From Candidatus Cottocaccamicrobium excrementipullorum (GTDB lineage Bacteria; Bacillota; Clostridia; Lachnospirales; Lachnospiraceae), in the NCBI GenBank assembly GCA_018713255.1, contig DVFL01000009.1, positions 124,001 through 188,000 of the forward strand: a stretch of 64,000 nt of DNA, read 5' to 3'. A model generated the notes under the pieces. The model was not told where the DNA came from. It was given only the letters and a program-made list of their open reading frames with translations, and made no database searches. Below, piece by piece: positions 6,201-9,931 of this stretch. Positions within the stretch are counted from its first letter, which is position 1. Each line of letters begins with the position of its first letter. The translations under genes were made by a program, and so were the position numbers.

Positions 6201-6273
6201 AATCAAAACGAAAATGCTGCGGCGAAGGCTGGAAAAGAGGCTTTGCGCCGCTGGAAAATGGAGAGTAATGAGT

Positions 6274-7656
6274 ATGTATCAGATAGATTTTAATCGTCCC
6301 CAGAAGATTTATTTTATTGGGATTGGGGGAATCAGTATGAGCGGCCTGGCAGAGATCCTTTTTGACGAAGGATTTCAGGTAATGGGCTCAGATATGAAGA
6401 AAAGCGAGCTTACAGACAGGCTGGAGCAGAAGGGAATTAAGGTGGAGTATGGGCAGAGAGCTTCCAATATTCCGGCTGACACCCAGGTGGTGGTGTACAC
6501 TGCAGCCATTCACCCGGACAATCCAGAATTTGTGGCTGCCAAGGAGATGGGGATTCCTATGCTTGCAAGGGCGGAGCTTTTGGGAGAGCTGATGCGCAAT
6601 TACCATCATGCAGTGAACATTGCCGGAACCCACGGAAAAACGACTACCACTTCCATGCTGACGGAGATTCTTTTAGCAGGAGAGAAAGATCCTACGGTTA
6701 CGGTAGGCGGGATTTTGCCGGCGATCGGCGGAAATATCCGGGTGGGAGGTTCAGAACTTTTCGTGGCGGAAGCCTGCGAATATACGAATAGCTTCTTATC
6801 TTTCTTCCCTACTATGGAAATTATTCTGAATATTGAGGCGGACCATTTGGACTTCTTTAAAGATATAGAAGATATCCGTCATTCCTTCCGCCGTTTTGCC
6901 CAAAAACTGGATGAGAAGGGAATTCTGATTATTAACCGGGAGATTCCCCGGCTTGAGGAGATTACAGAGGGTCTTCCCTGCAAAGTGATTACCTTTGGCA
7001 GAAATCCGGAAACCAGCAATTACAGCGCGGCAGAGATCACGTATGACCAGTATGCCAGAGCTTCTTATACTTTGATGATTGACGGGAAGCCTGAGGGAAA
7101 GATTGTTTTAGGCGTTCCAGGGGAACATAATGTTTATAATTCGCTCTCTGTGGTTGCAGCAGGGAGGGAGCTGGGAATTACCCTGGAGCAGATACAGAAG
7201 GGACTTAAATGCTTTTCTGGAACCAACCGGCGGTTTGAGAAGAAGGGTGAGATCGGCGGCGTGACGGTAATTGACGACTATGCTCATCATCCCCAGGAAA
7301 TCCGGGCAACCTTGACGACGGCAAAGAATTATCCCCACCGAAAAATCTGGTGCGTGTTCCAGCCCCATACATACAGCAGGACGGCGGCTCTTTTAGATGA
7401 GTTTGCCCAGGCCCTCCTGCTGGCAGATGAGGTAATTCTTGCGGATATTTATGCAGCCAGAGAAGTAAATACAATCGGAATTACTTCCCAGGACCTGGCA
7501 GATAAAATTCGGGAAGCAGGAGGAAGGGTTCATTATATCCCCTCATTTGATGAGATTGAAACCTTTATTTTAGAAAATTGTGTTCCCGGCGATTTGTTGA
7601 TAACTATGGGGGCCGGAGATATCGTAAAAGTGGGCGAAAAGCTCCTTGGCATGTAA
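6274..7656 (+). CDS. murC: UDP-N-acetylmuramate-L-alanine ligase
   Basis: MurC attaches L-alanine to UDP-MurNAc using ATP, the first amino-acid step of peptidoglycan precursor synthesis in the cytoplasm. From the start used here the protein is 460 residues. It has the N-terminal UDP-binding Rossmann motif FIGIGGISMSGLAEIL, the central ATP loop AGTHGKTTTTSML, the Mur ligase motif EACEYTNSFLSF and the C-terminal DDYAHHPQEIRATL and FQPHTYSRTAAL blocks. The frame extends upstream to 6214, but the conserved start MYQIDF at 6274 lies 8 nt after GGAGAG (6260-6265). An alternative ATG two codons upstream is too close to that site. It is followed directly by the DnaA-box array. Confidence 0.96.
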   Translation: MYQIDFNRPQKIYFIGIGGISMSGLAEILFDEGFQVMGSDMKKSELTDRLEQKGIKVEYGQRASNIPADTQVVVYTAAIHPDNPEFVAAKEMGIPMLARAELLGELMRNYHHAVNIAGTHGKTTTTSMLTEILLAGEKDPTVTVGGILPAIGGNIRVGGSELFVAEACEYTNSFLSFFPTMEIILNIEADHLDFFKDIEDIRHSFRRFAQKLDEKGILIINREIPRLEEITEGLPCKVITFGRNPETSNYSAAEITYDQYARASYTLMIDGKPEGKIVLGVPGEHNVYNSLSVVAAGRELGITLEQIQKGLKCFSGTNRRFEKKGEIGGVTVIDDYAHHPQEIRATLTTAKNYPHRKIWCVFQPHTYSRTAALLDEFAQALLLADEVILADIYAAREVNTIGITSQDLADKIREAGGRVHYIPSFDEIETFILENCVPGDLLITMGAGDIVKVGEKLLGM

Positions 7657-7857
7657 GTTATCCACAATATCCACATAGTTTTCAACATTTTATGTAAAGA
7701 AGCTATGTGGATGTTTTTATTTACATAAAAAATTTGCTGACAATTTAAAAATGCCTTGATTTTGCTGGATTTCGACAGGTTTCGCTGCGGCCTGAGAAAA
7801 ATAATCCACCGGGTTATCCACAATATCCACATTATCCACAACAGAGACTGTGGACAA
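7657..7857 (+). repeat. Two clusters of DnaA-box-like repeats between murC and the dnaD-like gene
   Basis: Perfect TTATCCACA boxes occur at 7658-7666, 7814-7822 and 7832-7840. One-mismatch ATATCCACA boxes occur at 7667-7675 and 7823-7831, and an inverted TTGTCCACA at 7857-7849. Boxes inside each cluster are head to tail with exact 9-bp phasing. The 20-mer GTTATCCACAATATCCACAT is repeated exactly at 7657-7676 and 7813-7832. An AT-rich stretch (about 7712-7760) lies between the clusters. The sequence match to the DnaA consensus is direct; binding by DnaA is inferred. Confidence 0.85.
7669..7719 (+). terminator. murC terminator built from the box sequence
   Basis: ATCCACATAG (7669-7678) pairs with CTATGTGGAT (7703-7712), followed by GTTTTTATTT. 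The left arm overlaps a DnaA-box-like repeat, so terminator and repeat share bases. Confidence 0.7.
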
Positions 7858-7886
7858 AGGGCGCTATTTTCTTTTTTTCAGGGGTG

Positions 7887-7895
7887 TGTTATGAT
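7887..7895 (+). promoter_or_regulatory. Extended -10 promoter for the dnaD-like gene
   Basis: TGTTATGAT forms an extended -10. The -35 position (7867-7872) is poor, as is common for extended -10 promoters. The last DnaA-like box (7849-7857) ends just upstream of it, a position from which a bound protein could control transcription. The predicted leader would be only about 10-20 nt. Confidence 0.5.
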
Positions 7896-7909
7896 GAACT
7901 CCAGAAAGG

Positions 7910-8932
7910 ATGAAGGATATGAAGTGGGAAATGAACAGCGGCTTCCAGGTGGACGCCACTCTGGTGGCCAATCGGTTTATTGATGAATATATGGCAGGAG
8001 CCAGCGGAGAGTATGTAAAGATTTATCTTTATCTTCTCCGTCATCAGAACAGCCAGACGACTACCGCAGAAACGGCGGAGGCTCTTCATTGTACGGAGGG
8101 GGACGTAAAGCGGGCTGTGGCTTATTGGCAGAAGGCCGGAGTACTTAAGACAGCCGGACCGGAAAAACAGGGGGAAAGAGCGGGAAGGCAGGAGGGAGAG
8201 AGCTCCTTGGGAAAAGGACAGATGCCTTCCCAGGGCTTTTCCATGGAGCAGGTGAGCCGTCTTTCCAGAGATGAGGATTTTTCGCAGCTTCTGTATATTG
8301 CCCAGAAGTACATGAATAAGGCTTTTTCTCAGAGAGAATGTCAGGTGTTTGCATATTTATACGGAGAACTTAAACTTCCTGTGGAGCTTTTGGAGTACCT
8401 GGTGGAATACTGCGTGCAGAACGGACATACCAGTATCCGTTACATGGAAACGGTGGCGGTTAACTGGCACCAGAAAGGACTGGTAACGCTGGAAGCGGCC
8501 AAGGCCTACAGCGCCGGATTCAATAAGGATTATTTTGCAGTGATGAAGGCATTTGGACTGACTGACCGCCGGCCGGCGGAGGCGGAGCGAAAAATGATGG
8601 AAACCTGGTTTGGCGCTTATGGATTTACCAGAGAGGTGGTGCTGGAGGCATGCAACCGGACGATCGAAGCGACCCACTCTCCAAGTTTTAAGTATGCTGA
8701 TAAGATTCTTTCTCAATGGAAACAGGCTGGCGTGAAGAATCTTTCTGATGTGGAAGATTTGGATATGATTCGAAAAAGCCAGGAAAAGGAGAAGGATCAG
8801 GCAAAGGGAAGAGGACAAAACCTTTCTGCCCGGACGTCTAAGACTACGAACCGGTTCCACAATTTCCAGCAGAGCTCTACAGATTACGATTCGCTGATGA
8901 TGGAGAAGGTTCGGGCGCGGATGAAGGAGTAA
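7910..8932 (+). CDS. DnaD domain protein (replication initiation/primosome)
   Basis: The product (340 residues from 7910) resembles the DnaD/DnaB primosome proteins that remodel origin DNA and help load the helicase in Firmicutes. It has an N-terminal winged-helix region (about 25-85), a charged linker, then two DnaD (DnaB_2-type) domains at about 125-200 and 205-285. Each ends in the YxxxIxxxW-type motif: YMETVAVNW in the first and YADKILSQW in the second. The start is uncertain; ATGs at 7910, 7919 and 7928 are all in frame near AGAAAGG, and 7919 has the best spacing. It forms an operon with the dnaC-like gene 18 bp downstream. Confidence 0.85.
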   Translation: MKDMKWEMNSGFQVDATLVANRFIDEYMAGASGEYVKIYLYLLRHQNSQTTTAETAEALHCTEGDVKRAVAYWQKAGVLKTAGPEKQGERAGRQEGESSLGKGQMPSQGFSMEQVSRLSRDEDFSQLLYIAQKYMNKAFSQRECQVFAYLYGELKLPVELLEYLVEYCVQNGHTSIRYMETVAVNWHQKGLVTLEAAKAYSAGFNKDYFAVMKAFGLTDRRPAEAERKMMETWFGAYGFTREVVLEACNRTIEATHSPSFKYADKILSQWKQAGVKNLSDVEDLDMIRKSQEKEKDQAKGRGQNLSARTSKTTNRFHNFQQSSTDYDSLMMEKVRARMKE

Positions 8933-8950: not shown

Positions 8951-9931
8951 ATGGCGTTAAGCAATGCACAGTATCAGGAAATTATGAGGGACTATCAGGC
9001 GCAGCAGCTTAGAAACCGTCACCAGCAGGAAAAGCGGGTGAATGAAATTTACCAGGTTCTCCCGGCAATTAAAGAAATTGATCAGGCGGTGAGCACCAGA
9101 GCGGTGATGCGTGCCAAGGAGCTGTTAGGGGGAGACCAGGAGGCCCTCTCTCGTCTGCGGGAAGAGATTAAAGATCTTCGGGAGCAGAAGACGATTCTTC
9201 TGGCCTCGAAAGGCTATCCTGAGGATTATATGGAGATGCATTACCGCTGCCCGGAATGTCGGGATACAGGCTACACTTCAGATGGAAAAAAATGCCGCTG
9301 CTTCCGGCGGGCTCAGATCCGCCTTCTCTATGCCCAGTCCAATATGGAGGATGTTTTAGCGAGGGAAAATTTTGAACGGTTTTCTTATGAATATTTTGAC
9401 GATACCCGGATTGAACCGGCAGTGGGAACCACAGTGGCCGGCTATATGAGAAAGGTTTATGGCTGGTGCCGGGAGTTTGTGGATGAGTTTGATGAAAAGG
9501 GCGGAAATCTTCTGTTTACAGGAGCCACCGGCACGGGGAAAACTTTTTTGACCAACTGTATCGCCAAGGCCCTTTTGGATACTTACCATTCGGTGATTTA
9601 TCTGTCCGCTCATGATTTGTTCGAGATTTTTTCCCGCTACCGGTTTTCTCGTCAGTCAGATGAAGAGATGGGAGATATGGAGGAACATATCCTGGATTGT
9701 GATCTGCTGATTATTGATGACTTAGGGACGGAGATGAACAATACCTTTACCTCTTCACAGCTGTTTTTCTGTGTTAACCAGAGACTTCTTTCCCGCCGGT
9801 CCACCATTATTTCCACTAATCTTTCCTTAGACCGCCTGCGGGATGAATATACAGACCGGGTGGCGTCGCGGATGATGAGCCATTATACAGTAATCCCCCT
9901 TTATGGAGAGGATATTCGGCTGAAACTCTAG
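8951..9931 (+). CDS. dnaC: DnaC/DnaI-type helicase loader ATPase
   Basis: This 326-residue AAA+ ATPase belongs to the DnaC/DnaI family that loads the replicative helicase. An N-terminal helical region is followed by a cysteine cluster at about residues 98-115 (CPECRDTGYTSDGKKCRC), as in the zinc-binding part of DnaI. The ATPase core has Walker A GATGTGKT (about residues 194-201), Walker B LLIIDDLGTE (about 254-263) and the sensor stretch STIISTNLS. Length and domain order match DnaI. The ribosome binding site arises from a small tandem duplication of the preceding gene's end. A promoter for prs follows without an obvious terminator. Confidence 0.9.
   Translation: MALSNAQYQEIMRDYQAQQLRNRHQQEKRVNEIYQVLPAIKEIDQAVSTRAVMRAKELLGGDQEALSRLREEIKDLREQKTILLASKGYPEDYMEMHYRCPECRDTGYTSDGKKCRCFRRAQIRLLYAQSNMEDVLARENFERFSYEYFDDTRIEPAVGTTVAGYMRKVYGWCREFVDEFDEKGGNLLFTGATGTGKTFLTNCIAKALLDTYHSVIYLSAHDLFEIFSRYRFSRQSDEEMGDMEEHILDCDLLIIDDLGTEMNNTFTSSQLFFCVNQRLLSRRSTIISTNLSLDRLRDEYTDRVASRMMSHYTVIPLYGEDIRLKL

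Follow-up and report, generated by a model that had tools for sequence, protein, structure and literature searches.

The murC–dnaD intergenic region

The DnaA-box arrays described here lie in a window (the whole 64,000-nucleotide stretch that was analysed, in the positions of which coordinates are given) between murC (6214–7656, + strand; TIGR01082, E = 1.9e-145) and two helicase-loading genes. The first of these is dnaD-like (7910–8932, + strand; Pfam DnaB_2, E = 5.3e-36, and TIGR01446), with a start that may be at 7910 or 7919, and the second encodes a DnaC/DnaI-like AAA+ ATPase (8951–9931, + strand; NF005304, E = 1.1e-113, and IstB_IS21), a probable helicase loader. These profile matches agree with the placement given in a previous sequence-only reading of this DNA. 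A single nucleotide separates the murC stop codon (TAA, 7654–7656) from the DnaA box that comes first. Forward boxes have the sequence TTATCCACA (starting at 7658, 7814 and 7832) or ATATCCACA (starting at 7667 and 7823), and follow each other in steps of 9 bp inside either cluster, which defines array 1 (7658–7675, + strand), a tandem of TTATCCACA and ATATCCACA, and array 2 (7814–7840, + strand), made of three contiguous boxes and located at −88 to −62 from a predicted transcription start at 7902. A reverse box, TTGTCCACA, occupies 7849–7857 on the − strand (−53 to −45 from the same start), and at least two good DnaA boxes are thus within reach of a promoter, as in DnaA-regulated promoters. 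Two copies of the 20-mer GTTATCCACAATATCCACAT, one beginning at 7657 and the other at 7813, are exactly 156 bp apart, and the spacer between the arrays (7676–7813) is AT-rich, with 34% G+C against 49% for the whole window. The six boxes, their 9-bp stepping, the 156-bp duplication and the AT-rich stretch had all been picked out by the earlier reading, at positions that are borne out here.

That reading was also right that such clustering is not due to chance, since the densest 201 bp of the window contain six boxes (at most one mismatch) and the maximum in 300 dinucleotide shuffles was three, but its expectation of about one perfect 9-mer per 130 kb was too low for this genome, in which there are 62 exact copies in 3.37 Mb of assembly (versus eight of the reversed pattern). 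The contiguous tandem pair TATCCACAWTATCCACA is found five times in the genome, three times at murC–dnaD and twice between secA and hpf, and its reversed control has no copy genome-wide. The latter locus, between divergent secA and hpf (Pfam; L022:7756-7870, or G000:C6:16755-16869), is a second dnaA-distal double tandem array, in which two perfect pairs lie at a distance of 97 bp. With one mismatch allowed, all 10 same-genus hpf loci fetched likewise have a couple of tandem pairs between these genes, at a distance of 96–97 bp. Another group of boxes, four perfect and one near-perfect, is within an RNA pseudouridylate synthase gene (L023:7700-7986, or G000:C33:60199-60485).

Arrays away from the origin

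Two tandem arrays separated by an AT-rich spacer resemble a bipartite origin, and an 'unusual origin element' was among the options of the sequence-only reading, which GC skew contradicts. Skew is positive in all 30 bins (range 0.10 to 0.25) of contig C30, which carries the window (291,741 bp, divided into 29 bins of 10 kb plus a shorter terminal bin), and does not invert at the array. The sign flips instead on the contig carrying dnaA (C25), where skew is negative in the first eight bins (to 80 kb) and positive in the final one (6 kb), changing near dnaA. That dnaA is on a different contig from the arrays (the assembly consists of 42 contigs and is 96.1% complete) is in keeping with the earlier remark that this gene is outside the window. 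The array thus has neither of two hallmarks of oriC, a skew inversion and a neighbouring dnaA, and the region upstream of dnaA contains eight boxes (at most one mismatch), with no contiguous tandem among them. A DnaA-trio beside array 1, as defined in the available part of PMC7561715, was ruled out as well: the bases that follow the array covary as hairpin arms (see below) and do not show DnaA-trio repetition. The origin hypothesis is rejected on GC skew, and the probability that we leave to a second or alternative replication origin, or to an unwinding element, is very small. Elsewhere in the family, 25 boxes (at most one mismatch) are packed into ~430 bp (L254:896-1329, on contig C132 of genome G026), a dense region that is possibly the oriC of that genome.

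Conservation in the genus and the family

Eleven genomes of the genus were compared, the own genome among them. From first tandem to first tandem, the arrays are exactly 156 bp apart in all 10 genomes that have both of them complete, and the 11th (G005), in which a contig end cuts array 1, fits the same value. Close relatives, in which the sequence-only reading had proposed to look for conservation, hence keep the register of the two arrays. A search of 250 family genomes for the double-tandem pattern (with a gap of 125–155 bp) identified it in 31, and the reversed pattern in none.

Of 150 family genomes, 148 have a DnaD match, and the region upstream of dnaD was read in 131, that is, 130 of the 148 (the 30 best scoring, 60 mostly odd-ranked and 40 even-ranked genomes, these last 40 constituting the second set) and one from a class search. 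murC precedes dnaD in 129 of these 131, and a forward tandem pair follows murC in 99, nearly all of which are from different genera, with two tandem arrays in 60 and a single one in 39. In 76 of the 131 genomes, the first tandem and the murC stop are at most 3 nt apart (−3 to +3), and reverse tandems were found in none of the 131. The element is not indispensable, since at the thresholds used a forward tandem is missing from 30 of the 129 genomes in which murC precedes dnaD, and in eight of these 30 (L094, L100, L101, L128, L131, L159, L204 and L228) the 450 nt next to murC contain no box at all. Outside the family, where 39 genomes from 38 other families (about one per family) were sampled from 146 non-family genomes with a DnaD match, a tandem pair is present in only one of 39 dnaD upstream regions (L192) and murC is upstream of dnaD in none. 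As judged from the genomes sampled, the element accompanies the juxtaposition of murC and dnaD in this family and can be lost. The proposed DnaA-box control region is probably old in Lachnospiraceae.

The predicted dnaD promoter and its helical phasing

The promoter of dnaD was called as the best extended −10, searched for 15 to 170 bp past the last tandem array, with TG and TATAAT counted in the score. In the window, this predicts an extended −10 TGTGTTATGAT at 7885–7895 (+ strand; hexamer 7890–7895), preceded after a 17-bp spacer by a −35-like element, TTTTCT, at 7867–7872 (+ strand). A standard promoter/terminator scan of 7400–8200 returned one promoter-like site, which is within murC, and no terminator. 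In 64 first-set calls scoring at least 11, the −35 position (17-bp spacer) reads TT and then mostly T, and in the 82 calls kept from both sets, TT occupies the first two −35 positions in 77 and G the third in 2. Since this TT is outside the −10 scoring, it supports the promoter calls. The commonest −35 hexamers in the 82 calls are TTCTCA, TTCTCT, TTTTCA and TTTCTT, the −35 region of these family dnaD promoters being mostly TTYTCW- or TTTNNN-like, not TTGACA. As many as 38 of the 82 match TTGACA at four or five of six positions (best of three spacers), so that the −35s are not very poor and make a weak argument for a needed activator.

Phasing is the strongest of the new lines of evidence: distances from the promoter-proximal array to the extended −10 form a ladder at ~66, 76, 86 and 97 bp, with a period of 10.2 bp (R 0.71, n 82, both sets). 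Of the 99 genomes with a tandem, 17 were dropped from this analysis (−10 score under 11, or distance of 130 bp or more), and R is 0.56 when none is dropped. In the first set, distances counted to the −10 from where the last array begins cluster at 64–67, 73–78, 83–88 and 95–97 bp, with few larger ones, and the best period is 10.1–10.3 bp (R 0.75, n 61). When the period is fixed at 10.2 bp, the second set gives R 0.62 (n 21, p 0.0002 against a ±10 bp jitter null), while in the pooled data the 10.2-bp phasing holds for distinct distances (p < 0.0001) and for disjoint closest pairs (p 0.0003; 26 of 41 pairs differing by at least 5 bp). Phylogeny does not enter into these jitter nulls, and the second set, a sister sample of the first, does not represent an independent clade. 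On the antisense strand of these regions, used as a control, there is no phasing (R 0.17, n 57, no score cut). The 9-bp stepping of the boxes was rejected as the cause of the ladder, since R at 9.0 bp is 0.50 versus 0.75 in the first set and distinct values have no 9-bp period (p 0.39); closest pairs retain a weak 9.0-bp signal (p 0.034). The boxes are thus conserved in position and phase relative to the called promoter, as in promoters regulated by DnaA.

These results bear on an alternative in which the nearness of dnaD is incidental and the arrays are a reservoir, or a site of inactivation or reactivation, where DnaA would be titrated or its nucleotide state altered (as at datA/DARS, or at DnaA-box clusters of B. 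subtilis). Tandem boxes distant from dnaA fit this alternative, and so does the second double tandem array at secA–hpf, found in the own genome and in all 10 same-genus relatives fetched, but titration predicts neither placement upstream of dnaD, nor strict orientation, nor a 10.2-bp promoter ladder. We therefore regard a reservoir as rather improbable, with the proviso that titration may occur as a side effect. The option of a DnaA-responsive promoter, one of several in the sequence-only reading, comes out strengthened by conservation in the family, fixed orientation and promoter phasing, all of which are evidence from sequence.

A predicted terminator that shares a DnaA box

Immediately downstream of murC, a predicted terminator hairpin (7666–7722, + strand) has arms at 7666–7682 and 7699–7715, followed by a T-rich tail, and folds as RNA at −21.9 kcal/mol (z −6.6) in the window. 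A stable hairpin and a T-run right after murC are what is expected of an intrinsic terminator, which the simple terminator scan missed because it allows loops of 3–8 nt only. The Rfam search gave four matches at E 0.12–0.82, all far under gathering scores. The second box of array 1 makes up most of the lower left arm of the hairpin and pairs with the downstream TGTGG arm before the T-run, by which it would double as an arm of the murC terminator.

Covariation was assessed in the 68 first-set genomes whose array 1 is no more than 120 nt from murC, 51 of which have a reachable TGTGG arm. At least five of six upper-stem pairs form in 31 of these 51 (best arm taken), compared with 6.3 genomes on average, and never more than 13, in 1000 rounds of shuffled partners, which ignore relatedness. 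Left arms of the 31 paired genomes start with 18 different four-base words. That the second box belongs to the hairpin is the one point in favour of array 1 being nothing else than terminator arms, with boxes that are not DnaA sites. Against this, the first box is mostly outside the hairpin in the window, array 2 has no part in it, and 17 of the 68 genomes keep the tandem even though no TGTGG arm is within reach, which makes this alternative very improbable.

Two other motifs were noticed in the spacer. The first is TTTACATAA (7720–7728, + strand), conserved in 29 of the 60 two-array genomes versus 0.2 expected, mostly 42–45 or 54–56 nt after array 1. It has no genome-wide enrichment (60 versus 61 for the reversed pattern), and an inverted copy sits in the hairpin loop in the window (7690–7698). 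The second, TTCGACA (7771–7777, + strand), is in 13 of 60 spacers versus 0.5 expected, and resembles a Spo0A box.

Spacing of the two arrays

The spacing between arrays 1 and 2 is also periodic, at ~11.2 bp (R 0.68, n 43), a period that was picked on the first set and, once fixed, holds in the second (R 0.64, n 16, p 0.0006). Pooling the sets gives p < 0.0001 for distinct values and p 0.008 for closest pairs (23 of 30). According to the available part of PMC8501960, lac loops in E. coli have an in vivo repeat of ~11 bp per turn, with optima near 133 and 144 bp, and the commonest array spacings (155–156 and 165–167 bp) are about one and two 11-bp turns beyond these. The periodicity is suggestive of looping, which it does not prove.

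A possible DnaA-controlled helicase-loader operon

Taken together, these features are best explained, and we think quite probably so, by a bipartite DnaA-binding control region of the dnaD–dnaC (helicase loader) promoter. In vivo, DnaA would fill the promoter-proximal array 2, upstream of the extended −10 and non-consensus −35, and would act on RNA polymerase from a single side of the double helix. Direct action on polymerase fits with the orientation and helical face that are kept and with a distance of 23 bp or more between array end and −35 in the 82 confident calls. This minimum applies to the confident calls only, five dropped weak calls being 23–38 bp after the array and the search for a −10 having begun 15 bp past it. 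DnaA on array 1 would probably join DnaA on array 2 via a DNA loop and stabilise or tune the complex, while the murC terminator, with the second box of array 1 as an arm, would insulate dnaD from murC transcription. The net effect would be that the supply of helicase loader tracks the level of active DnaA.

As for the sign of this regulation, activation of dnaD–dnaC is somewhat more likely than repression, and its odds were lowered slightly because the −35s are not very poor. The main rival to activation is that DnaA represses the operon through a loop between arrays 1 and 2, which would shut it when DnaA is abundant. The ~11 bp period of array spacing is reminiscent of lac repression loops, and most of the direct DnaA targets listed for B. 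subtilis in the accessible part of PMC4447404 are repressed. Two facts speak against it, the location of the arrays 23 bp or more upstream of the −35 in all confident calls and the finding that 39 of the 99 genomes with a tandem have one array only, and we consider repression possible but on the unlikely side. It overlaps with the preferred reading of a bipartite control region, so that the confidence placed in each is not meant to sum.

A broader proposal, which we put forward tentatively and with somewhat less than even confidence, is that the helicase-loader operon is widely controlled in Lachnospiraceae by a DnaA switch that forms a loop. Its two arrays would be phased to one another with the repeat of in vivo loops and to the promoter with that of B-DNA, loader supply would be a direct readout of active DnaA, and array 1 would also be a terminator arm. 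If true, a transcriptional circuit would lead from initiator to loader and couple initiation to helicase loading, which is not described in the portions of the literature consulted.

Significance and comparison with known systems

To our knowledge, how bacteria adjust the amount of helicase loader to the activity of the initiator has received little attention outside model species. A DnaA element that is conserved and phased on dnaD–dnaC would offer a simple testable circuit in a major family of gut bacteria. The array–promoter and array–array spacings, which vary naturally, can serve as a helical-phasing experiment made by evolution, which is one of the few ways of inferring RNA polymerase contact or looping from sequence alone. 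The B. subtilis dnaB–dnaI operon may be listed somewhere as being under DnaA control, which would reduce the novelty of the target and leave the layout unusual. A word search of the B. subtilis literature checked, in the parts accessible, did not find DnaA control of dnaB–dnaI. Among the matches listed, from mostly non-subscription literature and as far as titles, starts of abstracts and word counts tell, none deals with DnaA boxes in Lachnospiraceae or ahead of dnaD, the sole match listed with both 'DnaA box' and 'Lachnospiraceae' being about a plasmid. Nor does any match listed from this mostly non-subscription literature, as far as its indexed text goes, concern a helicase-loader operon as target, a double tandem layout, a box as terminator arm or phasing.

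There are several known systems with which the murC–dnaD arrays invite comparison. In E. coli, the datA and DARS loci likewise act on DnaA apart from oriC (PMC4585315, in the part available). They differ in that they act on the nucleotide state of DnaA, through hydrolysis of DnaA-ATP or exchange of ADP. We know of no promoter phasing for either. DnaA itself is both an activator and a repressor in E. coli, according to the available sections of PMC8203912, and stabilises an RNA polymerase complex at nrdAB, which likewise has DnaA boxes in its promoter region and can be activated or repressed, although target and layout are different. In B. subtilis, the sda promoter, ywlC, yqeG, trmE, ywcI and yydA similarly have intergenic DnaA-box clusters away from oriC at which DnaA is a transcription factor, but the direct targets listed in the accessible parts of PMC4447404 and PMC8203912 include neither dnaD nor a helicase-loader operon, and a helix-phased double tandem array like that at murC–dnaD is not described there. 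In Caulobacter, the DnaA regulon includes dnaB and dnaQ, and predicted DnaA boxes likewise lie upstream of the replicative helicase gene, although this is the helicase itself rather than its loader, in another phylum, with no double tandem array described in the sections of PMC8203912 at hand. Finally, the lac repression loop has the same dependence on operator spacing in vivo, at ~11 bp per turn (PMC8501960, available part), albeit with another protein, and looping at murC–dnaD is suggested by the spacing. DnaA-regulated promoters are already known, and it is this target, the helicase-loader operon, and this layout, two tandem arrays in helical register, that appear new.
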